Origin: Prostheceraeus crozeri
Taxonomy: Eukaryota > Platyhelminthes > Polycladida > Euryleptidae
Length of the DNA: 64,000 bases
Direction: 5' to 3'
Assembly (NCBI GenBank): GCA_907163375.1
Contig: CAJQUW010003452.1
Coordinates: 57,928-121,927 of the forward strand
Positions 6,913-58,667 of the stretch are shown here, piece after piece. The notes beneath the pieces are model-generated. The model was not told the DNA's origin and did not search any database. It saw only the letters and a program-made list of their open reading frames with translations. Each line of letters starts with the position of its first letter. The first letter of the stretch is position 1. Made by a program: the position numbers and the translations under genes.

Positions 6913-8659
6913 CAGTTTGCGACATTTTATTAGGACCACCCATATTTTTTTAGTTTTCTACACCTAGCTACTTGTTGATGTCATATTATCTTTCACTCTT
7001 GTCAATGCATTAAATAGGCATGTATGCCAACAATATACCACAACATAGACATCTACTGATTAATAACATAGACACTAGACAATCAAATACAAAAATTGAC
7101 CGCGACATATTATTAGGACCACCTTCGACATTTACATAAAAAGTTTTCCTTTGGACATGACAACGCTGCGTTTTTGTTTTGTAATTAGCAACCCAAACAT
7201 CTTATGTAAATCTTATGCAGCCGATGCTTCATGATAGCGCATTAATGTTCTGAATGGTTTACATCGGAGATGGTCCTTCCAACAAAGTGGCGCTGATGTC
7301 ATCAAAACGTCGCTTCACAATACTGACAGTGTGGCAGGGAGCTCCCTCTTGCATAAGCAGTCCGTTGTTTTCCGGAAACCAGCAGTCACGAACTATGGAA
7401 TCACCCTTCTCTGAAGCACTTGTAAGGATGAAGTCGAATCGAGCTAATAGAGCACTCACAAACATGAAGCCTACCAGTTTCCTCGCAAGAAAACAGGCCT
7501 ACAGCATGACCTTTGCTTGGTGTTTGACGGGCTGAAACGCAGGAGCAAGTGATCCACGTGACTGCCACATTCGCTGACGAGTAGTCTGGTGACACTCAAG
7601 GCTCGGCTATACGCAGAATGCCACCATTCACCAGTCATTGACGCTCCAATTGACATGGCGAGTGGCAAAATTAAGCCTATTAGATCTTCATGCATGGGGT
7701 CAATTACGACACTTTCCTTGACCGCAATCCCGCTGGCAATCATTTTATGCATCCCTCGTTGAACAGTGTGTGCCGCTTCGTTGATGTAACGCTTCTACCA
7801 TGGTCTTCGTAGCTGGGACGACGTTATTAGCCACCCTTTTCAAACAGTAGGCCTGCGCTCTTGGAATCGGCCATCTTGTGTCGTAGATTTTCATCATGCT
7901 CCACATCATCGTCGGTTTGCTGCATAAGGATTTCCAGAAGTCATATTCCGTTGAACAAGTAGTGCCGACGACTTTGAAACATAACAACGAGTAGCGATTT
8001 CACGCTGAGAAAACTCTTCGCGAGACAAAGCTTCCATCTACGAGCCACTTATGCTTGTTGTTAGATCCGTTTTTACTCATGAGTAAGATTTAGACTTTCC
8101 ACGTTAGACCTAAACATAAATCGTATTGGTAGATATCCATGTTATCTCAATAGTTCAGATATCTGGTCTCGATGATGCAAAGCAAATCAAGGATCGATTT
8201 GATAATGAATATTAATATCTTTATTGTTGACAGACAACAGTGTGCGTGCGCAGGCGACGACACATACCACACATTAATGATAGTTTCTCACATGCGGCTT
8301 TCTCACAGCAAGCCGACAATGCACAAATAAGGCAACCAGAACACACAATTTGTATTGCTAAGAAATCGACATATAAGTAAATAACTGATGATAGATCTTT
8401 ATCTAGCGTTGTCATGTCTAAAAGAAAGCTTCTTATCTAAATGTCGAAGGTGGTCCTAATAATATGTCGCGGTCAATTTTTATGTTTGAGTGTCTGGTGT
8501 CTGTGTTACTAATCAGTAGATGGCTATGTTGTGGTATATTGTTGGCATACATGCCTATTTAATGTATTGACAAGGGTGAAAGATAATATGACATCAACAA
8601 GTAGCTAGGTGTAAAAAACTAAAAAAATATGGGTGGTCCTAATAAAATGTCGCAGACTG
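6913..8659 (-). mobile_element. Tc1/mariner-type element inside the piggyBac A transposase
   Basis: The ends read CAGTTTGCGACATTTTATTA (6913) and the inverse of CAGTCTGCGACATTTTATTA (to 8659), each flanked by TA (6911-6912 and 8660-8661). The inverted repeats extend inward for about 200 bp to a second copy of the GACCACC motif (about 7120 and 8450). The length of 1,747 bp suits the superfamily. Internal ORFs are decayed. Confidence 0.85.
7259..7987 (-). pseudogene. Tc1/mariner transposase remnants
   Basis: On the minus strand, 7465-7259 reads ...MQEGAPCHTVSIVKRRF...LEGPSP, the typical region of the second catalytic Asp block to the P-SP motif of Tc1/mariner DDE transposases. Upstream pieces (7987-7471) are open in different frames and are only weakly recognisable. 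Frames are broken several times and no helix-turn-helix N-terminus can be read, so this is a dead copy. Confidence 0.6.
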
Positions 8660-10229
8660 TAAGTACCTTATCAATAACTCGAAACGATCACGGGAAATAA
8701 CAGATTGAATCTTCTCATACCCCAGCAAGTTTGACCAATAATCTCGGACCGCCCCCATCTGGACAAGACCCATTCTCAAATAGATATCAATTGCGAGTTC
8801 GATTTCCTTATGGGTAGTACCTAAAACTCGACAGGTTTGCTGAAAATAATAAAGGTTTGTTTGGTTTGAGATTTCAGCGAACATTTCGTCGTTGAAAAAG
8901 TCTTTGAAGTACAAATAAGGAGATTTTATCTCATCAGGAAAGTCTATTTCCCCACAGAAGTCACTAACTTGAGGTTCGAAATCAATTTCCTCCACAGCAG
9001 TCTACTGTCTTCGTTGGTAGCACTTGCTGATTCGTCGTCAGAATCAGTCTCTTCCTGAAGATCGTAGTCAGTGGATAGGACATCGTTGATGGTTTGATCT
9101 ATCGAATTCTTCAATTCATCCCCTTCATCATTCTCGTCCATCAGTTCATCATCGCTTACGTCTGGCTGGATATTGAAGAGTAGATTCAGTGCGTTCTGAC
9201 GGGATTGTCGTGGCTGTCGAACTGAATCCTAAAGAGTAAAAAAGATAACATCTTTTAGTTTTATATTGATAGGCTTAGGCCTTTCTAGACTTGGCTATGT
9301 ACCCATACCGTATCATTGTGAATGAAGATAAGCATATGCTTGTTGGTAGGTCTACCATGGATCATGGGAAATGTCTGTACATGGAAGTATTTGGTCTGAA
9401 CAGAACATAATGGTCACCCTAGCAAATATAAATGCTCTCATATCCTTGAAATAGACGTGACATTGTGCTGTCACAATTTATGTGGGCCTGAGCAGAATTT
9501 AATGGTCACCCTGATAAATTCGAAGGGCACCCATATCACTGTGAATAAATGTATACATCAACAAGAACATTGTTGATATCTTAGTACATAAATGTTGGCC
9601 TGAGCAGGACATTTCCTGAATGGTTTCATTTATGCATCCATACTTTCAGAAGTGACTATTTGCCTAATGATGCACAAATGCAACCACAAGAAAAACAGGC
9701 CAATTATACACAATGAATCAATATCTATTGTATCGATAACCACTTGATTTGCTTACAATTATCGTTTAGATCACTTGGAAGTAGTGGAATTAGCTATATA
9801 ATGCATTGTTATGTGATATAAACACGAGATTCTACTTACCATGACATATGGTCGAAACGAAAATAATCACTTTGGATTCAATACATGCGCCAGCACGTTT
9901 TACTGGCTTCCCCAAATCAGTCACTGTTGTTGAGCCAACGTACGCATCGTGGGTGACTCCTCGAGAGCCAATCAGACGCGGCTATCATGACAATAGACTT
10001 CAACGCTTTGTCAGAATAGGTGGTTGCAAATTTGCATCCATCGGCAGAAGAGGGTTAAAGTACACCGAAAGAGTAACATATTTTTGATCGAAACCTATGC
10101 AGTTCGGCGACAATGACGTTCAAAACGATAAATTCATTTAAAATACCACTGAACCACGTGTATTTCCTCAACATTTTATTTTAGTGTTTCTTTTCCCGCG
10201 ACTTTTGAGACAATTTTCTACCAAAAAAC

Positions 10230-16793: not shown

Positions 16794-16799
16794 TACCTT
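16794..16799. other. Left 6-bp target site duplication of the Polinton
   Basis: TACCTT immediately before the terminal AGTAGTAAGT. The same six bases follow the right end at 39481-39486. Six-base duplications are the Polinton hallmark. Confidence 0.92.
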
Positions 16800-17473
16800 A
16801 GTAGTAAGTAAAACTCCACCACTGGACCGCGCAAGATGGCCGCCATCGAAAAATGGTCGCTGACGTCCCCCCCTCGGAAGCGACAGAGTGTGAGACTCGG
16901 GTGAGTTGGTTTGACGTGGGCGACCGTCTAGGTTGACGTGGGCGGCCGTCTAGGTTGTCGTGGATGGTGAAACGGAGGCCAGATTCGGATTCAGCGTAAA
17001 AATCTGCATCGGTATGGTGAATTTGAAAGCAATCGGCGAGAAAAAATGTTTCTTCAAAATTTTGGCAGAGTTAAAATTTGGGACGTTTTGGTATGTAGCG
17101 CTCAAACGAAGCATCGGATGGGAAAACGGAGGCCGGATTCGGATTCAGCGTGAAATTCTGCATCTGTATGATGAATTTGAACGCAATCGGAGAGAAAAAA
17201 TTTTCGCTGACGTCCCCCCCCCCTCCGCCAAACTTCCAATTTTGCTTCTAGTGGACGGATTTTGTCGTGCAATAGCTCGTTTGAAAGCTAAGAGTGAGAC
17301 AAATTCACTGAAAGAATCGGCTTGTTCATATCTGTCTTCGTTTAGATGTGAGACGCCATTTAAGATTTTGGGACATTGGCGAAAAACGACAGAGTTAGAA
17401 TTTGGGACGTTTTGGGCTGTAGCTTCAAAACTAAGCATCGGATTGGAAAACGGATTTCAGATTTGGAATCAGC
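16800..17473 (+). repeat. Left terminal inverted repeat of the Polinton
   Basis: Pairs with 39480-38808 at a few percent divergence. The outer ~150 bp includes GATGGCCGCCAT and repeated GACGTGGGCGRCCGTCTAGG blocks. The inner part is a series of ~150-bp degenerate units around GCATCGGATKGGAAAACGGA. Long ORFs through it (for example 16960-17637) are by-products of this repeat, since the same open frames occur on both strands and at both ends. Confidence 0.93.
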
Positions 17474-22621: not shown

Positions 22622-25600
22622 ATGGTAAGTTGAAGATTTCCTCTCTCATCTCCCTCAAACGTGTGGCTAATAGCATCTTCCTCAATTTCAGGCATCAACT
22701 TCATCACCAACGCCCACCGTTCTCGAGGAAAGTTTAGAGTTGTTGAGTCAAGGTAGGTTGTAACAATACACTGAGACTTTAACAGAGATGATAGAATGAT
22801 TTCTCTTTCAGGTGATATGAGTTCCACCTCAGAACTGTCGCGACATGGCAACGAGTGGGAATGTGCCGACTGCGGACATATGTTTACAAGGAAGCACAGT
22901 CTCCTTCGACACATCAAACAGCGTGTGTGTCAACGCAAAGCGGCGTCAATCTATGGAGGTGAAGTTGATTCTGACGATGACATCTCCTTTCCTTGCGATT
23001 TGTGTCCTCTTTCTTTCGATAGTCACTTTCAGCGATCTTCGCACAGACTTCAACACACGCATGCAAATGATCACTACACCAACGGTACCTCTACCATCTC
23101 CCTCATTAATGTTTCACATAATAATTTAGTACGCCACTACTGCATGGAGTCCAATACTCAAATTGTAGATTTTCCTGAGTGGCTCCTTCAAAATTCTAAC
23201 ATTATCGAAGCGCTCTTCAACAATTTAGACAATTTTAGAATGAAGGCGCTCATCTACCTTAAACTAAAATATATTAAAATAGATTTTCAAACGGGTCAAG
23301 TGACGGAGAGAATATAGTTTCATGTTCCTTCCTCTTCCGCAACCGAAGTTGTAGACTGCGAGTCTTGGCTAAATTTTCACATTCAATGTTTAAAATCAAA
23401 TGTAGATAAATTCAATCAGCGCGACAGCGCTCTCATTTTTGATGGTGTGGACTCAACCATATTCAAAATTTCCCTATTAGAAAGTCATGCAGCTCGAGGC
23501 ACATTTAAACTACCAAAAACGTTTTATAATAAGAAAGCTGTCATCAATGTCGATTGTAAATCACAGTGTTTCAAATATGCAGTCTTATCCATCCTTCACT
23601 ATAATGATATCAACGCGCATCGAGATCGCACCTATAGCTATAGACAGTGGGAGGATGAACTAGACTTTGAAGGTTGTGATAGTAACAACATGAAAATCAA
23701 AGATGTAGAAACGTTCGAAAAACATAATCAGATTAAAATTGTAGTTCACGTGTGGGAGAAGGGGTTGAAGGGTGCCCGCTATAATTCACGTTCAACTTGT
23801 TATGAACGTGTAGTCAACCTCTTATTAGTAAAACAAGATGATAGCGAGGAATGGCACTACTGTGGTATTCCCAAAATCTCTCGCTTGTACACTCACTTGG
23901 GGCACTCTAAAAGAGGTGAACATTTTGTATGCGACCGCTGCATCCGCTCCTTTTGGAGTAAAGATAAATTTGAAACTCACTATGAATGGCGCAAGCGAGG
24001 TAAATTACAAATTGAACGCATGCCCAAAGATAAAATATTTTCACATAGGGATAATGGTGACGAATTAAGTCCCCTGCGTATCATTTACGCAGACATAGAA
24101 TGCTACATTGATGATATCATCCACAAGCCAGCAGCCATATCCTGCTATGAAGTATGGCATGACCACTTTAGGAATAGACAAAACAAAATGCATACTTGGC
24201 AAGGTGAAGATTGCATTTCAAAAGTTCTAGAATTTCTCGATAAAGCTGCTAAATTTCAACAATCATATGATTCCCAATTACAGCGTAAGTCACTACATAT
24301 GTCAGATGAAGACAAACAAAAATTTGAAAGTTGCACATCATGCCCTAAATGTCATAAAACGTCTGATGACGATAAAATTAAAAAAGTGCGTGATCATGAT
24401 CACATCACTGGTAAATTTAGAAACGCACTCTGCTCCAAATGTAACTTTCACTTAGGTTGAGACGTCGTGTACTACCCGTCATTTTTCATAACTTTAAGGG
24501 CTATGACAGTCATATGCTCATAAAAGGAGGGTTGAGCCAGATGAAATCGTGGCAGTTCAATGTTATAGCACAAACGAGAGAAAAATTCATGGCAATGACA
24601 GCAAAAGTACCAGTAGATAAAACTAAAGAAAATAAGACAGTCTTCTTCGAAATAAAATTTTTAGATTCATTTCAATTCATGTCAGCGTCACTAGCTTCTC
24701 TCGCTCGAAATCTCAAGTTTCTTCCCCATAGTCAAACTTTGAAGAAACACTATCCAAACTTAACGGATGACCTGATCACACGCAAAGGAGTCTTTCCCTA
24801 TGCGTATTTTAGCTCAATGTCTAAACTAAATGAAACAACCCTTCCTTCCATTGACAAATTCAAAAACGATTTGACGGGTGAAGATTGTCCAGTAGAGCAC
24901 TATGAACATGCACAAGAGGCATGGTTAAAATTTGACTGTAAAACGTTTGGCGATTATATGATCGCTTACTTAGAATTAGATGTCATTTTGCTGGCTGATG
25001 TCTTTCAGGAATTTCGACGAGTGGCATTAGAAGAAGACAAATTAGATCCTATCCACTTTGTCAGTCTACCAGCCATGTCCTTTAAATCAGCCTTTAAAAT
25101 GACTGGTGAGACCATTCATCTCTTACAAGACCCCGAGATGTATAATATATTTGAGCGCGGAATACGCGGTGGTCTCACATTTGTAAATAAACATCATATA
25201 AAATCTAAAACAGTAGGTGATGATCATATCCACCTAAAGTACTATGACCAAAATAATTTATATGGCAGTTCACTGTCTAAACCACTACCTCATTCCGAGT
25301 TTAGTTGGTTAAAACAAGATGAGCTTGAGTATTACTCCAACCCTTCAAACATTCTGAAGATTCCAGATGAAGGTGATTGGGGATATTATTTTGAAGTGGA
25401 TTTGATTTATCCAAATAGCATTAAAAATAAAATTGCTGATTTCCCACTCGCACCTGAATCTGGTGAAGTGACTGAAGATATGTTTTCACCATTCATGTCA
25501 CAATTTCATAATAACTTAACAGAGTGTGGACAGCCAATGTACAAACCATGCCGCAAACTTTTACTCACTCAATATGATAAGAAAAATTATCTCGTACACT

Positions 25601-26595
25601 TCTGCATACTAAAATTCTATTTAGAAATGGGCATGCTTCTAAAGTCAGTTCACCGCATTATCAAATTTAGACAGAAAGCCTTCCTCAAACCCTACATAGA
25701 TAGTAACAGTCAAAAACGTGCACTAGCCCAAAATAATTTTGAAAAAGATTTTTATAAATATAAGAATAATAGTCTTTTCGGAAAGACCATGGAGGATGTT
25801 AGAAAACGCATAAACTACAAACTAGTCACTGATGATCAAAAATATCACAAATTGACCTCATCACCTCTTTTCATTGATAAAGACATTATCGATGAGGATC
25901 TTGTAGGTGTTAAAATGATAAAATCTGAAGTTGAGTTGTGCAAGCCCATCTATATTGGCCAAGCTGTACTAGATTACTCTAAGCTTGAAATGTACCAACT
26001 CTTTTATAAAATACTAAAACCATGTCCTCTCGTAAAAGAGGTTCGTTTGTTGGGTGGTGATACAGATAGTTTCTTCTTAGGAATTACCACTCAAAAAGAT
26101 TTAAATTTTAATGAAGTAGCTAAGTCATTAGAAAAATATTTCGACACATCTAACTACAATCCCGCTCATCCACTCTTTTCCATACAGAATAAAGCCAAAC
26201 TTGGTTGTTTTAAGGATGAAACAGCAGGAAAGGAAATAGATGAAATGATTCTCCTCCGCCCTAAAATGTATTCCATGAAATTAAAAGAATGTGCAGATAG
26301 TATTAAGCGTGCTAAAGGAATATCAAAATCAATTGTCCAAAAAATGAAACATCGGTCCTATAAGAAGGCCTATAAAAATAAAACTATAACGTTTGTCAAT
26401 ATGACAATCTTAAAATCTCAAGTTCATACTGTGAAAACGCACACGTTCAAGAAACGAGCACTTTCAGCATGGGAGGATAAGAGGTGTTGGATAGGACATA
26501 ACACATCTCTTCCACATGGACATCCTGATACAAACATACCTCCACCCAAAAGAATAAAACTCACGCTACCACATTCAGGAGATGTATTGACATAA
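22622..26595 (+). pseudogene. pPolB: Protein-primed DNA polymerase B (pPolB), one stop and one frameshift
   Basis: Replicates the element by protein priming. Exon 1 is only the ATG (22622-22624); exon 2 is 22692-22752; exon 3 starts at 22812. Both introns (67 and 59 nt) keep frame and recur in the second copy. Two C2H2-like fingers come first (22859-23064), then a conserved N-terminal domain (to ~23480), VINVDCKSQCFKYAVLSILH, another finger, exonuclease motif YADIEC (24086), and an endonuclease-VII-like zinc motif with DHDHITG (~24390-24447). Exo II is HNFKGYDSHM. Polymerase motifs are DQNNLYG (~25246), KNNSLFGK (~25764) and GGDTDS (26053-26070). Breaks: in-frame TAG at 23315-23317 and a 1-nt deletion near 24449. 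Everything else is intact. AATAAA at 26754. Confidence 0.95.
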
Positions 26596-28325: not shown

Positions 28326-28334
28326 ACTTTTGCA

Positions 28335-29744
28335 TTAACTCTTCATTCGGAAATGGAGTGTGATACTTGTTACAGCATCTTTATGAAAAGGAATCAACGC
28401 ACCAGCATCGTCATAAATTGCAATATCAATTTGTGGGATGTAGTTTGATTTCAGCTTTGTATAATGCACTTTCTTGAAAGTATGCTCAGATAAAATACTG
28501 CAGCTTTTTGGCTGGTATGGTATCATTGCTAGGAATGGAGCTTCAACATCTCCCACACGTACATCTTCACCAATATTGGAATATATCTGAAAATAGTTAA
28601 TACGACGCGATAGCGACATGTCTGCGCTAGCTTTGGTTACAGTACCACTTTTAAAGATATTTTGATCAAAACCCAAAATGTCCATTAGAGTTTTATCCAT
28701 AATTAGTTCAATACCTTTTCCACTTATAGTGAGAGACAAAACACCTTCTTTTTCAGAAAATGAAATTTGTTGCTCATTAATCACTTCATTCAAATAATCT
28801 ATTGCCATCTTAACTGAAGTGATCATTCGAGGTGTCAACACTCTTGTTCTATGTGAGATTCCACTCAAAGGCTCTACACACTTTCTGTATAAAGATACCG
28901 ACCATTCTGTATCAACTTGATTTGATCCATCACATTTCAAATAGCGCATATCAAATTTTCCATGAACGGCCGCAGAGCGATGTCGTAAGAACTGATGAAA
29001 AACTTCTGAACAAACTAATACTAGATCATCATCATCATCATCATCATCTAATTTACTAATGACTATTTGATCCGTTGATTTCGTATAAGTCAATGTTGCC
29101 ACTTGTTTACCATCAACTCGAAGGAGAAAATTAAATTTCTTCACTAATGTTTCAGGAGTCATGTTTGTCTTTCTTGGCTTAATCACAATCTTCTTCAGCA
29201 ATGTCTTTTCATTTTTCGGAATAAGATCCACATAAAAAGCTTTCTCTTTGTAAATCAAATCTTTACAACCACTTGGGTGGTAATTAACGTTATAATTATC
29301 ATAGCTTGTTAAGGCGCTAGCGAGGTAACCTAAATCATTTCTTAAACTTGGACTTAAACCAACAATCCAATCTTTCTCAACTACATGATGTACATAATTA
29401 TGATCATCATTGTGCGGAGTAAATTGGATGATGTTTCTACCCTCTTTATTCAGGAAATCATATATAAACTTTTTACATGATAAGAGATCTTTCTTTGGCC
29501 ACTGTGGAATGTATACTCGGCACCCCTTTTCACATTGGTAAGCAGCTGTGCGTCTCATATTAATAGTCATCACCTCATGATCAAAAGTATAGACACAGTT
29601 GCTATAAACAAGTTGAGTGACACCCACTTCCCACTTTCCATTTAGCTGTTGTGTATGATCAATGGGAGTAGAAAAGAGTGCGGCTCGATTACTAGCAAAT
29701 CTATTTGCGGCCGCATTGCTAAGCAAAATATGATAAAACGACAT
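28335..29744 (-). CDS. Large Polinton protein, paralogue of the 26775-28325 product
   Basis: 469 codons from ATG 29744. The N-terminus reads MSFYHILLSNAAANRF...QLNGKWEVGVTQLVYS, clearly related to its downstream neighbour. A run of Asp residues (DDDDDDD, near 29040) forms an acidic loop. No known domain or membrane segment. Its stop is 9 nt before the next ATG on the same strand, so the pair is probably co-transcribed from the 35-bp intergenic region 29745-29779. Function unknown; a structural role is possible. Confidence 0.72.
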   Translation of the reverse strand: MSFYHILLSNAAANRFASNRAALFSTPIDHTQQLNGKWEVGVTQLVYSNCVYTFDHEVMTINMRRTAAYQCEKGCRVYIPQWPKKDLLSCKKFIYDFLNKEGRNIIQFTPHNDDHNYVHHVVEKDWIVGLSPSLRNDLGYLASALTSYDNYNVNYHPSGCKDLIYKEKAFYVDLIPKNEKTLLKKIVIKPRKTNMTPETLVKKFNFLLRVDGKQVATLTYTKSTDQIVISKLDDDDDDDDLVLVCSEVFHQFLRHRSAAVHGKFDMRYLKCDGSNQVDTEWSVSLYRKCVEPLSGISHRTRVLTPRMITSVKMAIDYLNEVINEQQISFSEKEGVLSLTISGKGIELIMDKTLMDILGFDQNIFKSGTVTKASADMSLSRRINYFQIYSNIGEDVRVGDVEAPFLAMIPYQPKSCSILSEHTFKKVHYTKLKSNYIPQIDIAIYDDAGALIPFHKDAVTSITLHFRMKS

Positions 29745-29779
29745 TTTTATATTGCTGATCTGCGACTTTGCATAACATC
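29745..29779. promoter_or_regulatory. 35-bp gap between divergent start codons
   Basis: Minus-strand ATG ends at 29744 and plus-strand ATG starts at 29780. A TTTATATT lies within the gap. Core promoters for both directions must overlap the coding sequence of the opposite gene. Confidence 0.5.
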
Positions 29780-30136
29780 ATGAAGACTTGGATTTTGGAC
29801 TCTCTACAATATATCAGAGTTGATCGTGATGGAAACGTGCATTTCAAAAATTCTCATGGTCATACATCAAGAGGTATTACATTAACATGGCGAGAATTTG
29901 TCAACCTCAATGATATCATGAGGGATTTGGAATATTTTGAAACATTAAGATTCATCTCCTTGGGTGATCAAGTTTGGCTTCAACATTACAGAAATGAAAT
30001 TCAAATCTGCCATTCTCATTCCGCAAACTGTTTCTCATTTCGCAAATACAATTGGGAGAAGTATAGAAGATACATACATCACTCCATCATGACATTTATT
30101 CGTCGCGAGTTCATCGCCCTACTATGCAAATCTTAA
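29780..30136 (+). CDS. PC4-like small protein, two putative repeats
   Basis: 118 codons from the first true ATG (29780). It seems to hold two ~45-residue repeats, each three short strands followed by a helix with an aromatic: RVDRDGNVHFKN...RGITLTWREFVNLNDIM, then ISLGDQVWLQHYRNEIQICHS...FSFRKYNWEKYRRYI. This strand-strand-strand-helix layout and the GITLTWREF wording resemble the PC4/Sub1 coactivator domain. That is pattern recognition, not a search result. The whole protein is homologous to residues 1-105 of the next gene, which adds a TBP-like fold. It could be a DNA-binding cofactor of that protein. Confidence 0.55.
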   Translation: MKTWILDSLQYIRVDRDGNVHFKNSHGHTSRGITLTWREFVNLNDIMRDLEYFETLRFISLGDQVWLQHYRNEIQICHSHSANCFSFRKYNWEKYRRYIHHSIMTFIRREFIALLCKS

Positions 30137-30158: not shown

Positions 30159-31025
30159 ATGAGTTGGAAATTAGATTCCCTACAACGTATTGAAACGGAT
30201 CATGATCGAAACGTCTATTTCAAAGATTCAACTGGAAATGTGAGAAGAGAGTTTGCTTTATCTTATCGTCATTTTCAATCTCTACATCATATCATGAAGG
30301 ATTTGAAATACTTCTATATGAAAAGACATTCACGTATTGGAAATTGCATCTGGTTGCGCGTCAACAATCGGCGAATTCAACTCTATCACTCCCAACTCCA
30401 TACTAACTTCACATTTCATCAAGGTAGTTGGGAAAGTATAAAAGGAAGGTACATCGCTCAATTTACTCATTTTTTCATCATGAAGCGCCATCGCTACACC
30501 ATGGTCAACATTCTCCGTCGCTTCAGACTCTACACCAAAATCGATCTCACAAGATTACACCAACACCTTCCAAACAGCAAGTATTACCCGGGCCGTCCTC
30601 AAATGTTAGTGGTGAAGATGAACAATTCTCGGAATCTTCAACTCTTCCCAAATGGGACTGTACAGATTCTCGGCGCCCTTTCTCATTCATCGGCGCAGTC
30701 AATGCGCTTAGAGCTACAAAGACTACTACGTCGGATATGGAAGAGAGAGAGGTGTGTGATGTCGAATCTGACTGTGGACAATATGGTGATCTCTACTCAA
30801 TTGAGTGAAAGTGTATCATTTTTGAAGATTCGTACCAGCAGTTACAATTTGTGTTATGAACCCGAACTTTTTCCTGCAGCTCTCATTAGTTGTTGGTTAC
30901 CTGTGCATGTTGCAATCTTTCATAATAGTAAAGTGATCATTACTGGACTAAAATCTCATGTGCAAGCAAATGCAATCCTAGACTATCTCATCGAGTATGT
31001 ACGTACCCAGCGGATTGTAAAATAA
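30159..31025 (+). CDS. TBP-like protein with PC4-like N-terminal domain
   Basis: 288 codons, starting 22 nt after the previous stop. Residues 1-105 are homologous to the upstream 118-aa protein. Residues ~115-195 and ~208-285 match the two pseudo-symmetric halves of the TATA-binding-protein core. Repeat 1 has KIDLTRLHQHL and LQLFPNGTVQILGA; repeat 2 has DNMV, SYNLCYEPELFPAALI, VAIFHNSKVIITGLKS. CYEPELFP in particular is close to the TBP signature. Of the four Phe residues that TBP inserts into DNA, three have counterparts (F163, F238, F254); the first is replaced near Pro147. Likely role: recognition of the element's own TATA boxes, or interference with host TBP. AATAAA overlaps the stop codon. 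Confidence 0.8.
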   Translation: MSWKLDSLQRIETDHDRNVYFKDSTGNVRREFALSYRHFQSLHHIMKDLKYFYMKRHSRIGNCIWLRVNNRRIQLYHSQLHTNFTFHQGSWESIKGRYIAQFTHFFIMKRHRYTMVNILRRFRLYTKIDLTRLHQHLPNSKYYPGRPQMLVVKMNNSRNLQLFPNGTVQILGALSHSSAQSMRLELQRLLRRIWKRERCVMSNLTVDNMVISTQLSESVSFLKIRTSSYNLCYEPELFPAALISCWLPVHVAIFHNSKVIITGLKSHVQANAILDYLIEYVRTQRIVK

Positions 31026-31056
31026 AAAACAATTTTTCCAACATGATGTTTTTATT
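31021..31056. terminator. Convergent poly(A) signals overlapping two stop codons
   Basis: AATAAA (31021-31026) overlaps the TAA of the TBP-like gene. TTTATT (31051-31056) overlaps the stop of the minus-strand protease. Only 26 bp separate the two coding regions. Confidence 0.65.
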
Positions 31057-31513
31057 TCAAATCATGATAGAACTTACAAATAAGTTTTTCATTAGAGGAT
31101 GGATTACATGAAAAGTTTTGAATAATAGATGCAAATCGAGATACATGTAAACGTTTTAAGATGAAGTATAGTACAAAAGCACCACACGTTGATGAAAGTG
31201 GATGTTGTAGTATGCGTTCATTTCGCTGATATTGACGCGTATGTTTTCTCAACCACTGCTGTGTTGGTATATTTGGAGGTTGAGCAAGAGAGTCAAATAG
31301 TTCACCACGTCGGTCTTCTCCAATAAAGATCGCTTTCCAATGCTCACCGCCTAAATTCTGCGAATGAGTGTTTAGCACAATAAAGATGGGATAGTGATTT
31401 ACTGCAGGTGGTAAGGTATCGAGTGAATAGACATTATCGAAAGCTTTCAACGTCGCTTCGTCTGCATTACGCTGTACTTTAGTTTTAATATCGTCAGCAG
31501 TCAACCAACTCAT
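31052..31513 (-). CDS. PRO: Adenovirus-type (Ulp1/C5-like) cysteine protease
   Basis: 153 aa; the family usually spans 130-200. It would process capsid precursors during maturation. Catalytic residues visible: His58 (GGEHWKAIFI), Asp74 (ELFDSL), Gln103 (ILQHP, oxyanion) and Cys110 (SSTCGAFVLYF), in the order and spacing of adenain and Ulp1. The start ATG overlaps the MCP stop by one base (TAATG), so the gene follows MCP directly, as in many Polintons. It appears intact. Confident assignment. Confidence 0.92.
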   Translation of the reverse strand: MSWLTADDIKTKVQRNADEATLKAFDNVYSLDTLPPAVNHYPIFIVLNTHSQNLGGEHWKAIFIGEDRRGELFDSLAQPPNIPTQQWLRKHTRQYQRNERILQHPLSSTCGAFVLYFILKRLHVSRFASIIQNFSCNPSSNEKLICKFYHDLK

Positions 31514-32790
31514 TAACGATTATACTGAAGAATCACGTCACGATACTTTGTAATTTCAATATTTGAATCGAAGACTGCATAAATTAATACATTGATGGTC
31601 TCAGGTAGTGTTCTTTTGAACGTCAAATCCAAACGAATATTATGAGGCACGTTCGCTTGACGATAGGGTGCACTAATATCGCTGTCAGCAGTCAAATCAA
31701 ATGCATAAATAGTATATCCACTCTTAAACTCTTTCATAGTCAGTCCGTTGGTGTCATCCGTATTGTAAAAGCCAAAGACATCCATAAAATCAACATAACT
31801 GCGCATAAATTGATCCGAAGCAAAATCTGGTTTGTAGGGTGGACCAGGATGACTCACACCATTTACACGTAAAGCAATTTCACTTAACTGATTGTGTTTA
31901 AAATTGAAAGGATTCTTCTTTATATTACCATTAAATGCATCATTTTCAACCATTGTCACCATAAGGAGCTTCGGTGCTTCCGATGGAAAGAGGCCATCTT
32001 TCATGAAACTCTTTTGATCTTTCGGAATTGTAAAGGTGAGAAGCTTTGTATGCTGAACGGGGTAAATGGCATTTTGGCGGTAAAGACCTTCAGCATGCCT
32101 TCTAATGACACTTGGATTCGGTACTACTCGACGAATGTAAAGTGCAATATCTTCCACATGAATTCTAAAATTGTCAACTTTAGCAAATGCATTCAGCGCA
32201 AATTCAGGCTTATTCAATGTCAGCTTGAGTCGCATGCTGGTATTACAGAGTAAAAACTTTGACTGTCTAAAGAAGTCTAAATTCAGCGGACCATATAGCT
32301 GACATACTTTACTATCTTTAATCATAGCAGATCGCTTTACAAAGCCACTGTTTGTTTCAACATCAAATTTTCCTGCTTCATCTCTGTACCATCCCATGGC
32401 TTCCATATGACTTTTTTGTGCTGCTGGATGAAACTGTGATACATGATTGAAATATGATTTATAGGGATAATCGCTTTGATCACCTTCCACCTGCTGCTCT
32501 CCAATCGTTAGAGAAACATCGCGAAGTAATGTAGTCAATGGTAAATTGTTCAGTCCAACTTAATGTGCATCGTCAATAGCAGTTCCATCTGCTTGCTGAA
32601 TTCTAAACCTCAAATCAACCATTGCATAACTCAAATCTATGTAGTCATCACTACCACCAGGAATAACAAATTCAATGGGGCCAGCATTCTCAGCTGTTCG
32701 AGGATGATAATCTACAATACTTGAACTAAGAATATCTGTCTGTATGGCTTGTTGATCAAACAAACAAAACCCGGAAGTTTTACACTCCAT
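31513..32790 (-). pseudogene. MCP: Major capsid protein (double jelly-roll hexon), one in-frame stop
   Basis: About 425 codons from ATG 32790, of the metazoan Polinton/adintovirus hexon family that appears in animal gene sets as 'F54H12.2-like'. The N-terminal part (ETAENAGPIEFVIPG-like region, IDLSYAMVDLRFRI) and the downstream part (NNLPL...LLRDVSLTIGEQQV, ALYIRRVVPN, FDLTADSD, IRLDLTFKRTLPETINVLIYAVFD) are typical of this protein. A TAA at 32560-32562 interrupts the frame after residue 76; reading continues in the same frame without other damage. The protease follows at once. As read, no full-length capsid protein can be made without readthrough. Confidence 0.85.
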
Positions 32791-33248: not shown

Positions 33249-33289
33249 AGCTCAAACCCTAAACATTGTTAGTTACAACTTTGCATGAA

Positions 33290-34551
33290 TCACTGTCGAT
33301 CACTTAGATGAAAGATGTCGGCACGACGCATCCAAGAGTTCATACTTGAAGGATAACCAGTCCATTTAACAAGACACCATTCTTCACCTTGCCGTTTTTT
33401 ACATCGAATGATTTTCTCTACCAAATATGTTTCACTTTCAGTGACTACCTCAATCTCATCGCGGTAAAAGCTACCCTCAATTTCTTCATTATCGTAATCT
33501 TTCAACTTGTAGGTGGTTGGAGAGTCTTTTTGATTAATCCTTGATACTGTAAATACCTCCTCTGTCCAATTCGGAAGGTACCCTTTAGCAAAAACACTTT
33601 TCACTTTTGAGATACCAACTTTATCACCAATTTTCACATCACTTTTCACATGAGTGCGTTTACGTTGGAATGATTCGCGCACTTTATCTACATTGTCAGC
33701 ATTTACATCTACTGGTCTGAGTCCAATAGAACGATGGATAGAGTGATTGTAGGCATGGAGTGTATCTTGAAGAACCTTTGTCCAATTTTGTGTCAAGTTG
33801 GCAGTAAAATGTCGCCACAAGCGATTTTTTAATGTGCGATTAAAACGTTCAACGAGTGCAGCTTTATAAGCACTCTTTACACTAAACAACTCAATGTCAT
33901 GCCTCTCAAATAATCTTGTCACATGCTGATTTTCAAACTCTTTTCCTTGATCACTCTGAATTCTTTTTGGAATGCGACCTTCTCGAAAAATTGTTTGGAA
34001 TGCTTTTGCTACTCCTTTCCCTTCTTTAGTTTTTAAAGGTTGAGCCCACGCATAACGCGAGAAAATATCAATGACGGTTAAAATAAAATTATTGCCCGAG
34101 TTATGTTTTGAAATGGAGGTAACATCACACAAATCTGCTTGCCACTGTTCATCGATGTCATGAACAATATAATGGCGGGTACTTCTTTTTCGCTTGTTTG
34201 TGGAGTGTATAGGTAGCCTGACCCTTTAACCATCGTTTCACTTGTGATTGTGGAAGACCACTCGCTTTTGATAATTTCTTGATAGATTCAAATCCTGCCG
34301 GATGTTTTACATCATAATAGATTGACTTCAAACGTTCAGCCGATGACGACTGACTCTTTTTCCTCCTTCTCATCTTTTTGTTTTCTTGCCTTTCTACATT
34401 TACAACAACTGCAGCATTTAGCTTTAGCGGTTTTGCGATCGTGTTCACATTGCTTAGGAGTTTCATTGTGAGAGCTGGCGCAGCAAGAGCAAGTGACAAC
34501 GACATTCACCTCTGGCGGCTCATTACATGGCAAGCAACACATCTGCTTCAT
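33290..34551 (-). pseudogene. INT: Retroviral-type integrase with chromodomain, frameshifted
   Basis: Inserts the element. The ATG at 34551 opens a Cys-rich N-terminus (CCLPC, CSCC, CCSCCKC). A frame change near 34360 leads to LKSIYYDVKHPAGFESIKKLS...YTLHKQAKKKYP, the usual N-terminal domain. A second 1-nt shift near 34182 leads to the catalytic core: WQADLCD (first Asp), IQSDQGKEF (Asp at 33950-33952) and ALVERFNRTLK (Glu near 33850). An SH3-like region follows, then a C-terminal chromodomain (YLVEKIIRCK..EEWCLVKWTGYPSSMNSW, 33300-33420). The frame changes could be decay or an unseen intron. It is adjacent to the 230-aa gene, ATG 1 nt after that stop. Confidence 0.9.
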
Positions 34552-35245: not shown

Positions 35246-35907
35246 AGTTTGTAGATAATCATGGGAGTTTTCAAAATATCACTTCGAAATCTAAATTCTT
35301 CCGGACACTCTTGCGTAAAGTCAATGAATAAGCAACCGTATGGTTTTTCAGTAGCTGCTTGAAAAATTTCAATTAAGGCTTTTGATCCTCTGGGTGCAAC
35401 TTGTCGCGCTAAAATTTCAAATTGACTTTTATCTCGCGGATTCTTGAAAATAGCATAATAGTGTGTATTCAGGTTTCGTGTACGAGCTTCTTTTCCATCA
35501 GGAAACAAATTTTGTTTGATATAGATGATAAAGCACCTTTTATGATGTGCTGCGCGAGTGAACATATCTGTAACATCTTTTGAATTCTTACTTTCTTTTA
35601 ATAAATCATCCAATACAACAACATCATTAGACTGAAGTTTATCCACTGGAATAATTCCTTCATGTCGAATAAAGTTGCGACTTTGCAATTCCTGAAACAG
35701 CGACGGTTGATAAATACCATAACACCAAATCACTCGATTGATAGGTTCCTTAAACAACTCCCTTCTTTTATCCAATAAATTCAGCGTGAAAACAGTTTTA
35801 CCTGCATGAGATGGACCTGATACAGTCAGAACTTTATCGCATTGAAGTCTGAAATCCATTTTAATACTTTGAGATTCAACATTTGCATAATTAACGCTTA
35901 GACCCAC
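35242..35907 (-). CDS. ATP: FtsK/HerA-type genome-packaging ATPase
   Basis: 221 aa, the usual length for Polinton A32-like ATPases. It would pump DNA into the capsid. Walker A is GPSHAGKT at residues 31-38, Walker B is DVVVLDD at 95-101, and an IYIKQNLF segment in the 120s-130s is the usual polar sensor motif. An ARTRNLNTHYYAIFKNPRD stretch follows, as in the family. The frame is intact. The start overlaps the previous gene by 17 nt and the end overlaps the next by 4 nt. Confidence 0.92.
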   Translation of the reverse strand: MGLSVNYANVESQSIKMDFRLQCDKVLTVSGPSHAGKTVFTLNLLDKRRELFKEPINRVIWCYGIYQPSLFQELQSRNFIRHEGIIPVDKLQSNDVVVLDDLLKESKNSKDVTDMFTRAAHHKRCFIIYIKQNLFPDGKEARTRNLNTHYYAIFKNPRDKSQFEILARQVAPRGSKALIEIFQAATEKPYGCLFIDFTQECPEEFRFRSDILKTPMIIYKL

Positions 35908-36256: not shown

Positions 36257-36307
36257 TTTCCGTGTTAGTCTTTGCTAAAACCTATCTTTACCACATTTGC
36301 ATAGGTA

Positions 36308-38807: not shown

Positions 38808-39480
38808 GCTGATTCCAAATCTGAAATCCGTTTTCCAATCCGATGCTTCGTTTTGAAGCTACAGCCCAAAACGTCCCAAATTCTAACTCTGTCGTTTTTT
38901 CGACAATGTCCCAAAATCTTAAATGGCGTCTCACATCTAAATGAAGACAGATATGAACAAGCCGTTTGTTTCACTGAATTTGTCTCACTCTTAGCTTTCA
39001 AACGAGCTATTGCACGACAAAATCCATCCACTAGAAGCAAAATTGGAAGTTTGGCGGAGGGGGGGGACGTCAGCGAAAATTTTTTCTCTCCGATTGCTTT
39101 CAAATTCACCAAACAGATGCAGAATTTCACGCTGAATCCGAATCCGGCCTCCGTTTTCCCATCCGATGCTTCGTTTGGGCGCTACAGACCAAAACGTCCC
39201 AAATTTTAACTCTGCCAAAATTTTGAAGAAACATTTTTTCTCGCCGATTGCTTTCAAATTCACCATACCGATGCAGAATTTTACGCTGAATCCGAATCTG
39301 GCCTCCGTTTCACCATCCACGACAACCTAGACGGCCGCCCACGTCAACCTAGACGGTCGCCCACGTCAAACCAACTCACCCGAGTCTCACACTCTGTCGC
39401 TTCCGAGGGGGGGACGTCAGCGACCATTTTTCGATGGCGGCCATCTTGCGCGGTCCAGTGGTGGAGTTTTACTTACTACT
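38808..39480 (-). repeat. Right terminal inverted repeat of the Polinton
   Basis: Inverse of 16800-17473. It ends ...TTACTTACTACT at 39480 and is followed by the TACCTT duplication (39481-39486). It lacks the extra ~485-bp block found at the left. Confidence 0.93.
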
Positions 39481-39486
39481 TACCTT

Positions 39487-46116: not shown

Positions 46117-46188
46117 GCGGCTGGTAGGATTCGAACCTACGACTAAGGTTAACTAGGCCTGTGCTCTACCAACTGAGCTACGAGCCAC
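46117..46188 (-). tRNA. tRNA-like sequence, probably a pseudogene
   Basis: On the minus strand: A-box TAGCTCAGTTGG, B-box GGTTCGAATCC, a perfect T stem (GTAGG/CCTAC), a 4-bp D stem (GCTC/GAGC) and a 6-of-7 acceptor stem. The anticodon stem pairs poorly; the loop CTAGTTA would give AGT (Thr). The poor anticodon arm suggests a tRNA pseudogene or SINE head. Confidence 0.5.
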
Positions 46189-48650: not shown

Positions 48651-48892
48651 ATGTACATGGTGAGAAATCATGTGCTTTTGAAGAATGATATTTTCTGATT
48701 TAGCGAGTGAAGCTACAAATGTTTGATCGATTCGGATGAATATTGACTTGGCACACCCGCTAGTGTGAATTACTGTATTTAGTTCAAAATGGCGTGGGTA
48801 ATGATTGACATTTATTTGAAAATTTGTTGCGCAGACTTCACACCTTCGAATAACCTTTTTTTAAATTTGACTTCTTCATGAAGATTGATTGC

Positions 48893-49690
48893 TTTCATAA
48901 TTGTATTTCAGGATGCCGGTTTCAGTGCGTCATACACGTACCATCATCAGTGAAAATAACAAAGAACAATGGATGCACATTTTATACATGGATGAATTAC
49001 ATGAACAGATGATGATGAAATAATGATGCAGACGAACAAAATGACAATATTTACAATAAAAACAACATCGGTTCCGACTTTAAATTGTTGTTCATTAGTA
49101 CTTTTGTGCTAGATTTGATTAGAAGTGTATCTGAACTTTTTGTATGGAATGTTTGTAATAATATTTCAAAGTTTTGTTCTGTTGGTATGTGTATCTATGT
49201 AATGACATTTCTGATGATGGTCTGCCTTTTAGATGTTCTTTTATGCGTGTGAGTCTCTCCGATGTAGCATTCTTGACAATGTTCACAGTCATATTGATAA
49301 ACAAGAGAAGTGCGCTCGTTAAATGGGACATTATCCTTGTATTGGCAAATATTCTGCGTTTTATAAGTCGTGTAGGCAATTTTTATTTTCGATTCTTTCA
49401 ATACTCCATTTATGCTTCGAATTTTCCTATTTATTTATTTGTACGATTCTTCAACAATAGGTAATTTCCAGAAAACATTCACTTTCTCTTCATCTGAATC
49501 TTTATTTGCTTTTACCTTTTCGAATATTTTTGAATATATTTTGTACAGTATGTAATTTCTGATGTAACAATTTTTCTTAGATAGGCGCTGAACAAACTGT
49601 TTGTTTTCATCACGTTTTCGGGACTCAGTAGGTATTTTTTGGGTGTGGACATAGAGGACCTTGATAGCATTGTGTTTGTAAACAAAAAAT
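48893..49690 (-). repeat. Left arm of the Penelope inverted repeat
   Basis: Inverse of 50779-51572. Encodes on the minus strand LYVHTQKIPTESRKRDENK, then KIAYTTYKTQNICQY and a YDCEHCQECYIGET GIY-YIG start. Translated stretches of more than 80 residues are identical in both arms. Confidence 0.9.
49119..49401 (-). pseudogene. GIY-YIG endonuclease fragment, left copy
   Basis: LVYQYDCEHCQECYIGET holds the YDC..C...YIG part of the Penelope-type GIY-YIG domain. After YIGE the frame shifts and continues as RLTRIKEHLKGRPSSEMSLH, the typical R..EH segment. The domain is therefore broken by a small indel, identically in both arms. Confidence 0.75.
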
Positions 49691-50778: not shown

Positions 50779-51572
50779 AAAGTTACAAACGCAATGCTAT
50801 CAAGGTCCTCTATGTCCACACCCAAAAAATACCTACTGAGTCCCGAAAACGTGATGAAAACAAACAGTTTGTTCAGCGCCTATCTAAGAAAAATTGTTAC
50901 ATCAGAAATTACATACTGTACAAAATATATTCAAAAATATTCGAAAAGGTAAAAGCAAATAAAGATTCAGATGAAGAGAAAGTGAATGTTTTCTGGAAAT
51001 TACCTATTGTTGAAGAATCGTACAAATAAATAAATAGGAAAATTCGAAGCATAAATGGAGTATTGAAAGAATCGAAAATAAAAATTGCCTACACGACTTA
51101 TAAAACGCAGAATATTTGCCAATACAAGGATAATGTCCCATTTAACGAGCGCACTTCTCTTGTTTATCAATATGACTGTGAACATTGTCAAGAATGCTAC
51201 ATCGGAGAGACTCACACGCATAAAAGAACATCTAAAAGGCAGACCATCATCAGAAATGTCATTACATAGATACACATACCAACAGAACAAAACTTTGAAA
51301 TATTATTACAAACATTCCATACAAAAAGTTCAGATACACTTCTAATCAAATCTAGCACAAAAGTACTAATGAACAACAATTTAAAGTCGGAACCGATGTT
51401 GTTTTTATTGTAAATATTGTCATTTTGTTCGTCTGTATCATTATTTCATCATCATCTGTTCATGTAATTCATCCATGTATAAAATGTGCATCCATTGTTC
51501 TTTGTTATTTTCACTGATGATGGTACGTGTATGACGCACTGAAACCGGCATCCTGAAATACAATTATGAAAT
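50779..51572 (+). repeat. Right arm of the Penelope inverted repeat
   Basis: Same content as the left arm in the opposite direction, ending near CATCCTGAAATACAATTATG. Beyond this point the flanks differ, so the match stops sharply at both ends. Confidence 0.9.
51063..51345 (+). pseudogene. GIY-YIG endonuclease fragment, right copy
   Basis: Same two frames and same break as 49119-49401, in the right arm. Confidence 0.75.
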
Positions 51573-52224
51573 CACTGAGGCGACTTTCTGCAAATGCGAT
51601 CAATCATCTGCCGCCAAATGATTGCTTTCGCTAAGTTTCTTCCGTGGCACATAATTAGACATTGATATTACATCATTTGTAATGGATTTGTGGCTTGATA
51701 TGTTGATATTTTTGAAAGTTATAAAAATTTGTTGCGCTGACCTCACAGCGCAAGCTACTTGAAATTTGATTTGCGTTTTCGGGCCAATGAAGGCTGAATT
51801 TCTTTAAAAAGTGTAACGAGAAATGATGAGCGATCCCAAGTTGTGTGGTTGAGGCAATTTTTGGGAGTGACGCAGTCGAAATAAAAATGGTTGCGCTAAT
51901 TTCACACACATGAGGCAGCCTCACAATCGGAATATCAAGCAGCCAACATGATTTCTGAAGAAAGTAGTAGTAACAATGCTAAAATTTCGTTATTTGCAAG
52001 ACGTTTTGCAGCTACGATCAGACTTGTGTTGTAATTGTAATTGCTTTACATGCACTGTAATACACTGTGTAATGATTACTAAATGTAATTAATCACATTT
52101 TCAGATGAGTAATTTAAGCTGCAATTACATTTTTATACATGTAATTGAGATGTAATTCTATTACTGTACGGTCAGCTCTACTCATCAACACATAATTCAA
52201 ATTCCCTTACTTTCCTCGTCGATA
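51573..52224. other. AT-rich intergenic DNA
   Basis: Contains a TGTAATTNNATTAC-rich patch (52030-52160). No gene seen. Confidence 0.4.
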
Positions 52225-52715
52225 ATGATCCTCCACTTGCTTTCTCGACTGATCCTCCAGCTACTGCCCCATCTGATCCTCCACCTAGTGTCTCAACTGA
52301 TCGTCCAGCTACTGCCCCAACTGATCCTCCAGCTACTGTCTCAACTGATCGTCCAGCTACTATCTCAACTGATCCTCCAGCTACTGTCTTGACTGATCCT
52401 CCAGCTACTGTCTTGACTGATCCTCCACATGTGTCTCAACTGATCCTCCAGCTACTGCCCCAACTGATCCTCCAGCTACTATCTCAACTGATCCTCCAGC
52501 TACTGTCTTGACTGATCCTCCAGCTACTGTCTTGACTGATCCTCCACATGTGTCTCAAACTGATCCTCCACCTACTGTCTCAATTGATCCTCCACCTACT
52601 GTCTCAATTGATCCTCCACCTACTGTCTCAATTGATCCTCCACCTACTGTCTCGACTGATCCTCCAGCTACTGTCTCAACTGATCCTCCACCTACTGTCT
52701 CGGCGGCATGTGCAG
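52225..52715 (+). repeat. 24-bp minisatellite, about 20 units
   Basis: Units of ACTGATCCTCCAGCTACTGTCTCA with CCA/CCT and AGC/ACC variants; a few units are one or two bases short. Because 24 is a multiple of three, parts read TDPPPTVS in frame (52508-52729), but the frame is not kept through the array and there is no start context. Confidence 0.92.
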
Positions 52716-53396
52716 CCGAATGTAAATGATTCACCACACGACGTAGCTCATCTTTCCCATTGCTCCATTTACTATTGGTAGACGACCATTACCAGAAAGA
52801 CTGAAGAAATATTTTGCTGAAGAAGGTTGGGATACACCCTTTAAGCCATTTGGGACAGAAGATGATGAAAGCTCAGCAACATATCACTATACCTTGACCC
52901 AGTGATTTACGCTCAAATGTTGTATGTAATAGTAGTCCAGGAAATCGAAAATGTAAGAACTTGTCTGGAAGATTCAGTCACATGCAATACAAGTCAAAGG
53001 CAATGTGGATCGTTAACAATTGGATAATAAGCTTGTAACAGCGTCTTATCTCCCATCTGAAAGTGTAGAGCTGGAGATCTCTGAGCCCTATGAAAGTTGA
53101 GCAAAAGATTGTTTGAGAGTGTAAGAACTGTCATGGATGCAATCAGACTCAGTATTAATTAAATCCCCTTCGTGTATACAGCTTCGATTTTATTAAATGA
53201 ACTCGAATGACACCCATTACCACATGTGAGATATACAAATTTTTTTGCACTTTTGGAGAAATTTACATCAATTTTACTGATCGTGATGGTAAAACAGAAG
53301 GAATAACAGTATTTAATAAGTCATCCGTGTCATGTAAACATTGGAGAGGCAATATCAGAGTAGGTATACATGTATATATAGGTAGAGTGTCGACTC
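52716..53396. other. Intergenic DNA
   Basis: No supported gene. Confidence 0.4.
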
Positions 53397-55873: not shown

Positions 55874-56560
55874 AGCTCACCTGAAAAAATCCTAAGTGTC
55901 AGAGTGGTTTTGTATGGGTAAAATTTTGAAAATTTTCCAAAGTGTGGCATTTCGACCTGGGACCCTCACCAAAGTTTGTTTCATCAAATTTCACTGACCC
56001 CCCCCCCCGACAGCAATCTTCTAACTTTGGTTCTAGTGGACGGATTTTGTCTTACAGCTACTCGTTTGAAAGAGGAGAAAAAACTGCTCGACGACATTTT
56101 TGTTGCGAGTCAATCGGACCAGCCGTTCAAAAGTTAGAGCTGTTACAAGATTTTAGGTCGGAGCTCACCTGAAAAAATCCTAAGTGTCAGAGTGACTTTG
56201 TATGGACAAAATATTGAAAATTTTCCAAAGTGTGGCATTTCGACCTGGGACCCTCACCAAAGTTTGTTTCATCAAATTTCACTGACCCCCCCCCCCGACA
56301 GCAATCTTCTAACTTTGGTTCTAGTGGACGGATTTTGTCTTACAGCTACTCGTTTGAAAGAGGAGAAAAAACTGCTCGACGACATTTTTGTTGCGAGTCA
56401 ATCGGACCAGCCGTTCAAAAGTTAGAGCTGTTACAAGATTTTAGGTCGGAGCTCACCTGAAAAAATCCTAAGTGTCAGAGTGACTTTGTATGGACAAAAT
56501 TTTGAAAATTTTCCAAAGTGTCGCATTTCGACCTGGGACCCTGACCAAAGTTTGTTTCAT
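55874..56560 (+). repeat. 288-bp tandem repeats with an adjacent inverted copy
   Basis: Two full units (about 55874-56161 and 56162-56449) and a third partial one, each starting AGCTCACCTGAAAAAATCC. An inverted partial copy follows (about 56580-56700). They replace the ~150-bp TIR units of element 1 but share the CCCCCCCC and GTGGACGGATTTTGTC segments. Confidence 0.88.
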
Positions 56561-56888: not shown

Positions 56889-56928
56889 CCCCGGCAACGT
56901 AAGTCTGATCACGTCATCGAAAGACGAG

Positions 56929-58663: not shown

Positions 58664-58667
58664 CCTG

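Follow-up and report, generated by a model that had tools for sequence, protein, structure and literature searches.

A Polinton-encoded TATA-binding protein homologue in the flatworm Prostheceraeus crozeri

Does a Polinton of the polyclad flatworm Prostheceraeus crozeri encode a TATA-binding protein (TBP) of its own, and if it does, what might the element use it for? The question is raised by a 288-codon open reading frame (ORF) at positions 30159–31025 of the plus strand in a 64,000-nucleotide stretch of contig CAJQUW010003452.1 (assembly GCA_907163375.1, contig positions 57,928–121,927; hereafter the window, to which all positions refer), which carries both TBP repeats from residue ~108 onward. 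An initial annotation of this DNA had read the two halves of the product as TBP repeats joined to an extra N-terminal domain, and had pointed to well-formed TATA boxes before several genes of the same element. In our analyses the Polinton-encoded TBP homologue stood, whereas the fused N-terminal domain and the TATA-box premise did not.

The ORF lies within an element of 22,681 bp (16800–39480) that is a Polinton, having terminal inverted repeats, a 6-bp target-site duplication and an RVE integrase with a chromodomain. The features of the element outside the region of the TBP gene are as follows.

16794–16799: left target-site duplication, TACCTT, 6 bp
16800–17221, plus strand: outer part of the left terminal inverted repeat, beginning AGTAGTAAGT
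23318–26595, plus strand: DNA polymerase B region, in two frames and broken here; a motif-based assignment
31052–31513, minus strand: Ulp1/adenain-like protease (PRO); Pfam C48 E 0.0013, below the cut-off, with the homologue in locus L022 above it
31513–32790, minus strand: region of the probable major capsid protein, split over two frames here and a single open frame of 426 aa in L022
33290–34225, minus strand: RVE integrase with chromodomain; Pfam rve 6.7e-11, Chromo 4.6e-7
34158–34505, other frame: probable N-terminal piece of the integrase, broken here; both pieces lie within one ORF in L022
35242–35859, minus strand: packaging-ATPase-like gene, a weak assignment (Pox_A32 0.031; homologue in L025 AAA_14 0.0011, below the cut-off)
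39059–39480, minus strand: outer part of the right terminal inverted repeat, 99% complementary to the left
39481–39486: right target-site duplication, TACCTT, 6 bp

We take 23318–26595 to be DNA polymerase B from its motifs (DTDS and others); searches of Pfam, NCBIfam and PDB returned no polymerase match for it, and its first frame contains an Endonuclease VII domain (Pfam 9.4e-8). The capsid region at 31513–32790, which has no Pfam match, is likewise presumed from its position and resemblance. In the window copy, frame breaks affect the genes for polymerase, integrase and capsid region and the partner gene (described below), and the TBP gene is open. The left part of a second, related Polinton occupies ~56000–64000, where blocks 93–98% identical lie ~38.2 kb downstream of their counterparts; it ends at the window edge before its TBP region.

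The matches of the 288-codon ORF to TBP far exceed chance. Pfam PF00352 matched it in two stretches (E 1.5e-19, 70.1 bits against a curated cut-off of 22.9), and a phmmer search of PDB returned 35 distinct sequences, every one a TBP or a TBP fusion construct (best E 1.1e-11). A profile of the family gave a single alignment with M. jannaschii TBP that spans both lobes (E 5.5e-27), and profile–profile comparison to TBP by hhalign reached a probability of 99.5% across 173 columns. The TBP gene proper is 30480–31025, a part also matched by NCBIfam, because the database relatives with a TBP domain are, among the matches listed, mostly 160–230 aa long and in the majority start near the window's ATG at 30480. 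Its parts are these.

30480–31025, plus strand: TBP-family gene proper, 181 aa (MKRHRYTMVN...), both lobes; from Pfam, PDB and NCBIfam matches, 105 aligned relatives and AlphaFold2
30495–30740, plus strand: N-lobe, residues 6–87; DNA face altered (L12, P40, M42, Q54, Q62, L64), with N10 and F56 retained
30771–31007, plus strand: C-lobe, residues 98–176; canonical DNA face (N101, V103, F131, P132, F147, T155) and the TFIIB-contact residues E127 and E129

AlphaFold2, run on the 181-residue protein with 106 sequences, predicted a strand–helix–strands–helix pattern occurring twice, as in a two-lobe saddle (pLDDT 96.3, pTM 0.87), and the predicted protein stops after the C-lobe as a bare TBP core. 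All 44 PDB matches of this model found by Foldseek at E ≤ 0.001 are TBP or TBP-complex chains, judged by title, with TM to the query of 0.70–0.83. A further 47 matches at E ≤ 0.001 were obtained in the viral structure library BFVD, including giant-virus, asfa-like, irido- and ascovirus proteins. The profile search and the comparison with a TBP saddle that had been proposed as checks thus both bore out the reading of the two halves as TBP repeats, and it is near certain that the Polinton encodes a real TBP homologue.

The gene also occurs in further Polintons of the same 2.05-Gb genome assembly, as the initial annotation had suggested looking for. In a search with the window protein, all 150 places scored (of 11,860 candidates, the window included) were full-length, stop-free and 98–100% identical to it, so that the genome holds at least 150 near-identical copies. 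A search with PF00352, for which 150 of 10,983 candidates were scored, placed all 150 above the cut-off, which is likewise a lower bound. Four of these rows are host TBP exons or a TBPL1-like gene, and 20 stretches around others were fetched, chosen by hand for varied frame length. Other Polinton proteins were found beside the TBP in all 20 (polymerase in 19, integrase in 10, capsid region in 10, protease in 10 and ATPase in nine). By identity to the window's TBP, the stretches form family A (six, 94–96%), family B (three, 42–43%), family C (one, 39%) and family D (ten, 39–44%, with one partial match at 53%). In the ten family-D stretches (L023, L028–L029, L031–L033, L036–L037 and L039–L040) the polymerase was the sole other Polinton gene found. 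The TBP frame is interrupted in four of the 20 (L023, L025, L039 and L040). The host's own TBP lies on C9306 (L013, L015), and we take G000:C3829 (locus L014) to be a TBPL1/TRF2-like host paralogue from its resemblance. TBPL1/TRF2 is comparable to the Polinton TBP as a divergent animal TBP paralogue with a candidate in the same genome, and differs from it in being a host gene.

The 288-aa frame opens with the start of a different, ~216-aa protein. Over this part the protein is 97% identical to the database entry P0004, which runs on in another frame across the TBP gene, up to the motif ...PFSFIGAVNALR...EEGEV...SIE. We refer to the gene of this protein as the partner gene, and its features in the window are as follows.

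29780–30136, plus strand: tandem paralogue of the partner domain, 118 aa, 41% identical to P0004
30159–30467, plus strand: start of the partner gene (PUR/Whirly/PC4-like domain), running into the TBP frame here; from P0004, P0007, P0010, P0126 and P0127 and a fold search of the P0004 model
30428–30808, plus strand: partner-gene tail, read in the +2 frame across the TBP N-lobe and open for 126 codons, ending ...SIE

The end of the paralogue contains the TATGCAAA box of the next gene. What had been taken for an extra N-terminal domain on TBP is instead a separate overlapping gene with its tail in another frame, the relatives of the TBP starting near 30480, and in the window copy the two frames have slipped together, making the 288-aa ORF.

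Families B and D, with TBPs ~39–44% identical to that of A, have the partner gene in the frame relation to TBP that is seen in A, and the partner tails of all three have in common an end of the form ...SF..A...(30–40 residues)...SIE and a W..Y....H....S stretch. The second frame is open over the entire TBP overlap in six of six A, two of three B, seven of ten D and none of one C copies, and open back to the partner's start codon in five of six A, one of three B and five of ten D copies. Synonymous shuffling of the window TBP's codons left the second frame open across 108 codons in only 0.055% of cases (20000 trials), and codon resampling did so in 0 of 20000. Out of 50000 trials each, the respective counts were 75 and 8 for a family-A copy and 97 and 29 for a family-B copy, and both tests gave 10 to 128 of 50000 for three family-D copies, all of these copies being chosen for having the second frame open. 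Within the overlap, pN/pS (pairs below 80% identity dropped, save in the +1 control) was 0.62 in A and 0.65 in D for the TBP frame, 0.71 and 1.23 for the second frame, and 1.32 and 0.93 for the third. For family D, pN/pS therefore gives no support to selection acting on the second frame. On the sequence evidence as a whole, the overlap of the TBP and partner frames is real and old, and it constitutes a strong natural case of dual coding.

The fold predicted for the P0004 model is PUR/Whirly/PC4-like, a tandem beta-beta-beta-beta-alpha arrangement followed by the long disordered tail. The partner differs from Pur-alpha, Whirly, MRP1-2 and PC4-Sub1 in that its domain has no sequence-profile match, with identity of 6–8%, and in that its tail is encoded over a TBP gene. 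Judged by this model, it is likely a single-stranded DNA (ssDNA) or promoter-opening partner of the TBP.

Residue conservation was examined in an alignment of 106 sequences, composed of the window TBP and 105 of the 122 TBP-like database proteins retrieved (120 of 739 profile matches being listed); the 17 proteins omitted are fragments, gene-caller truncations and one extended form. Yeast DNA-contact positions, as given in Table 1 of PMC12529657, were mapped onto the Polinton TBP by motif. The N-lobe face is unlike that of cellular TBPs at six of eight positions: F99 is replaced by P in 104 of 105 non-gap rows, A101 by M and V122 by Q in all 106 sequences, L114 by Q in 97 of 106, T124 by L or M in 103 of 106, and V71 by M, H or L in 100 of 101. 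The two retained positions are N69 (N in 94 of 94) and F116 (F in 106 of 106). The C-lobe face is kept throughout (of 106 sequences, F207 in 106, P191 in 106, F190 in 105, T215 in 104, and N159 and V161 in 103 each), as are the TFIIB-contact glutamates (E186 in 105 of 106 and E188 in 106 of 106). Of the four intercalating phenylalanines of canonical TBP, then, F99 is lost and the other three are present in 105–106 of 106. Within the protein, conservation is highest at the DNA-contact positions (mean 0.91 versus 0.47, P 1e-8), which make up five of the ten invariant columns (P 5e-4).

Families A, B and D all show the altered N-lobe set at every place that the alignment reaches, apart from a single D copy that has a stop and one residue changed, and family C has K at the V122 position. 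It was absent from the five PDB TBPs and the nine IMG/VR viral TBPs compared, the latter differing from the Polinton TBP in this respect, and the host's own TBP, judged by eye, appears canonical at these positions. The basic residues of N-lobe helix 2 are mostly lost as well: K or R occurs at yeast positions 133, 138, 141 and 145 in 6 of 106, 10 of 106, 15 of 106 and 33 of 101 sequences, with provisional numbering counted from T124, and 71 of 106 have an acidic residue at the K138 position. K or R persists at position 136 in 52 and at position 144 in 64 of the 106, and R98 is retained in 105 of 105. In short, the Polinton TBP resembles cellular TBPs (eukaryotic and archaeal, PF00352) in its two lobes, saddle, C-lobe DNA face and TFIIB glutamates, and differs from them in these N-lobe and helix-2 residues and in being 21–26% identical to the five cellular TBPs compared. 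In a tree of the window TBP, 30 of the 105 aligned relatives, the five PDB sequences and nine of 12 IMG/VR loci (after removal of two duplicates and a locus with an in-frame stop), the Polinton TBPs form one clade (UFBoot 100) on a long branch apart from cellular TBPs. A recent capture of the host TBP is ruled out by this single long-branch clade and the low identity.

The TATA boxes mentioned above were not borne out, since TATAWAW within 120 bases upstream was found for 3 of 19 ORFs against 1.2–1.3 expected (P ~0.1), which is no enrichment; the 19 gene starts used for the box tests were listed by hand, and one of the 19 in the TATAWAW run was not an ATG. The top upstream 7-mer in the element was instead ATGCAAA, which precedes six of the 19 genes in sense orientation at −10 to −46, a score matched by 1 of 2000 random-position sets and 1 of 2000 random-ATG sets. 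The six upstream sites, out of nine copies in the element, are these.

28329–28335, minus strand: ATGCAAA box, −10 of ORF516
29767–29774, minus strand: TATGCAAA box, −29 (core) of ORF469
30123–30130, plus strand: TATGCAAA box, −35 (core) of the partner gene upstream of the TBP
33280–33286, minus strand: ATGCAAA box, −38 of ORF151
35882–35889, minus strand: TATGCAAA box, −29 (core) of the ATPase-like gene
36296–36303, minus strand: TATGCAAA box, −46 (core) of ORF121

Over the whole 64-kb window ATGCAAA shows no excess (25 versus 24), and the TBP gene in the window element has no upstream box of its own, unless it is cotranscribed with the partner gene. The six other family-A copies, which are not independent of one another, have ATGCAAA before 19 of 48 ORFs, with none in antisense and ~1 expected. 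Family B has it before none of 25 ORFs. AAGCAA emerged in that family from a de novo count, and its P values are therefore post hoc: it stands before six of nine ORFs in L022 and four of nine in L021 (0 of 3000 random sets each) and two of ten in L024 (P 0.037), largely at the same genes in related copies. The combined form A[T/A]GCAA is weak in L024 (2 of 10, P 0.09) and in family C (1 of 11), and the homologue of ORF469 has it in families A, B and C. In five family-D copies it is not enriched (1 of 6, 1 of 7, 1 of 7, 0 of 4 and 0 of 8 ORFs); possibly, the box-bearing genes are missing from those stretches. CATGTGA and GACAGGGA recur upstream of ORFs in family D, and may represent another promoter box or mere redundancy among copies. 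A[T/A]GCAA can therefore be described as an upstream feature of families A and B and, from sequence, as a candidate TBP site.

An element that carries its own TBP suggests its own way of turning on its genes. We propose, with a probability of roughly 0.7, that the Polinton TBP is a dedicated initiation factor of altered specificity, which uses host TFIIB to start transcription of the element's own genes. Under this proposal, the canonical C-lobe would hold half of a TATA-like box and its retained glutamates would recruit host TFIIB and Pol II, and the rebuilt N-lobe (F99 replaced by P, A101 by M, V122 by Q and L114 usually by Q) would shift specificity off plain TATA, plausibly to the A[T/A]GCAA box upstream of structural genes in two families. 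The altered helix-2 surface of the N-lobe may free the protein from Mot1, NC2, TFIIA and TAF1, and the partner with its disordered tail would likely serve as an ssDNA-binding or promoter-opening helper. According to PMC7221094, the N-lobe basic cluster serves binding of TFIIA, Mot1, TAF1 and Brf. Several observations count against parts of this proposal: losing F99 could abolish canonical bending, A[T/A]GCAA is weak in L024 and family C and not enriched in family D despite the same TBP signature, ATGCAAA also forms the POU octamer core, the TBP gene lacks a box unless it shares the partner gene's transcript, helix 2 keeps some of its basic residues, the TBP frame is interrupted in four of the 20 stretches, and the window copy has several broken genes. 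A more elaborate form of the proposal, which we regard as tentative and with the odds against it, is a self-contained promoter system, in which the N-lobe would have been rebuilt (P99, M101, Q122) for A[T/A]GCAA, effectively a TATA box with GC mid-way, in a TFIIB-recruiting and regulator-avoiding TBP co-encoded with a PUR-like ssDNA-binding partner, in overlapping frames that would predate the split of the three Polinton families. If true, a two-gene transcription switch would be compressed into one stretch of DNA.

The alternative that survives best, and which falls somewhat short of an even chance, leaves the initiation factor in place and assigns A[T/A]GCAA to a host POU factor or to the PUR-like partner, the TBP itself reading AT-rich DNA. 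We take ATGCAAA to be the core of the POU octamer, and ATGCAAAT to be the octamer motif. This alternative would also fit family D, which shares the TBP signature and has no enrichment of the box; family B, however, carries AAGCAA rather than the octamer, and the N-lobe DNA face is changed at most of its positions.

We prefer the initiation factor to an inhibitor, since conservation peaks at the DNA-facing residues and both TFIIB glutamates are kept. As an inhibitor or decoy, the Polinton TBP would occupy host promoters or TFIIB and lower host transcription, without starting the element's genes. The retention of the glutamates while the N-lobe surface for other factors is partly changed, with acidic residues common at the K138 position, is in keeping with this, as is the loss of one intercalating phenylalanine. 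A TFIIB decoy, however, needs no DNA face, yet that face is the best conserved part of the protein and its new residues are near-fixed, and in two families the genes of the element itself are preceded by a specific box; we consider this role unlikely. It is similarly improbable that the 288-aa fusion of PUR-like domain and TBP in one chain is the functional product in the sub-lineage of the window. A 292-codon frame, the fused length, is open at 10 of the 150 scored genome places, the window included, which shows that frames this long have spread; among the copies read, only the window and L027 have the actual fusion. Against it, most of the 150 scored rows have a 234-codon frame, the frames are separate in five of the six other family-A copies and in B and D copies, and a fused partner would forfeit its conserved +2 tail.

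Slighter still are the prospects of a DNA-bending protein for replication, integration or packaging, acting for example at the terminal repeats and not in transcription. The long branch of the family apart from cellular TBPs and the ssDNA-binding-type fold predicted for the partner agree with such a role, and Polintons replicate via protein priming, but it leaves the near-invariant TFIIB-contact glutamates unexplained. A functionless fossil of a captured host TBP, for which the broken polymerase, integrase, capsid-region and partner genes of the window copy might speak, is scarcely credible given the low identity to cellular TBPs, the pN/pS below 1, the 150 stop-free places and a signature kept across families.

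To our knowledge, virus-encoded TBPs are otherwise known only from large DNA viruses and herpesvirus mimics. The Polinton TBP is akin to the TBPs encoded by giant, asfa-like, irido- and ascoviruses as a TBP of a DNA virus or virus-like element, and differs from those of large viruses in that the Polinton measures only 22.7 kb and its TBP is overlapped by the PUR-like gene. Mirusviruses encode a TBP (PMC10132985), and viral TBPs are reported without the N-lobe regulator signature (PMC7221094). KSHV ORF24 is described in PMC12529657 as a viral TBP mimic with a more polar N-lobe DNA face that reads the non-TATA late box TATTWAA, and as having all four phenylalanines, extra domains and no TFIIB glutamates; proteins of this type have an additional C-terminal domain that binds DNA. 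The N-lobe DNA face is thus changed in both proteins, whereas the Polinton TBP lacks F99, has both glutamates and is a bare core ending after the C-lobe. This herpesvirus late-gene mimic is the nearest functional analogue of the Polinton TBP. No description of a Polinton-encoded TBP was found in the literature searched, which included PMC10675990, PMC12220804, PMC13037468, PMC10558129 and PMC7786948, and term look-ups in PMC11071296, PMC11071308 and PMC4642659 gave no match. The presence of the gene in several Polinton families and in so many near-identical copies indicates that small virus-like transposons can bring a TBP-type factor with them. It also makes testable how the genes of such an element are started, how such an element might evade the host's control of TBP, and how specificity may change through one lobe.

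The remainder of the window holds several other features. A 792-nt inverted repeat (48890–49681 and 50783–51574) is 100% complementary between its arms, and the ORF in the 1101 nt between them reads like a Penelope-type reverse transcriptase. A short ORF at 8639–9001 appears to resemble a piggyBac-type transposase. A 24-nt minisatellite array at 52154–52772 codes for a DPPAT-type repeat, and an Rfam tRNA match of 40.8 bits is located at 46118–46186 on the minus strand.
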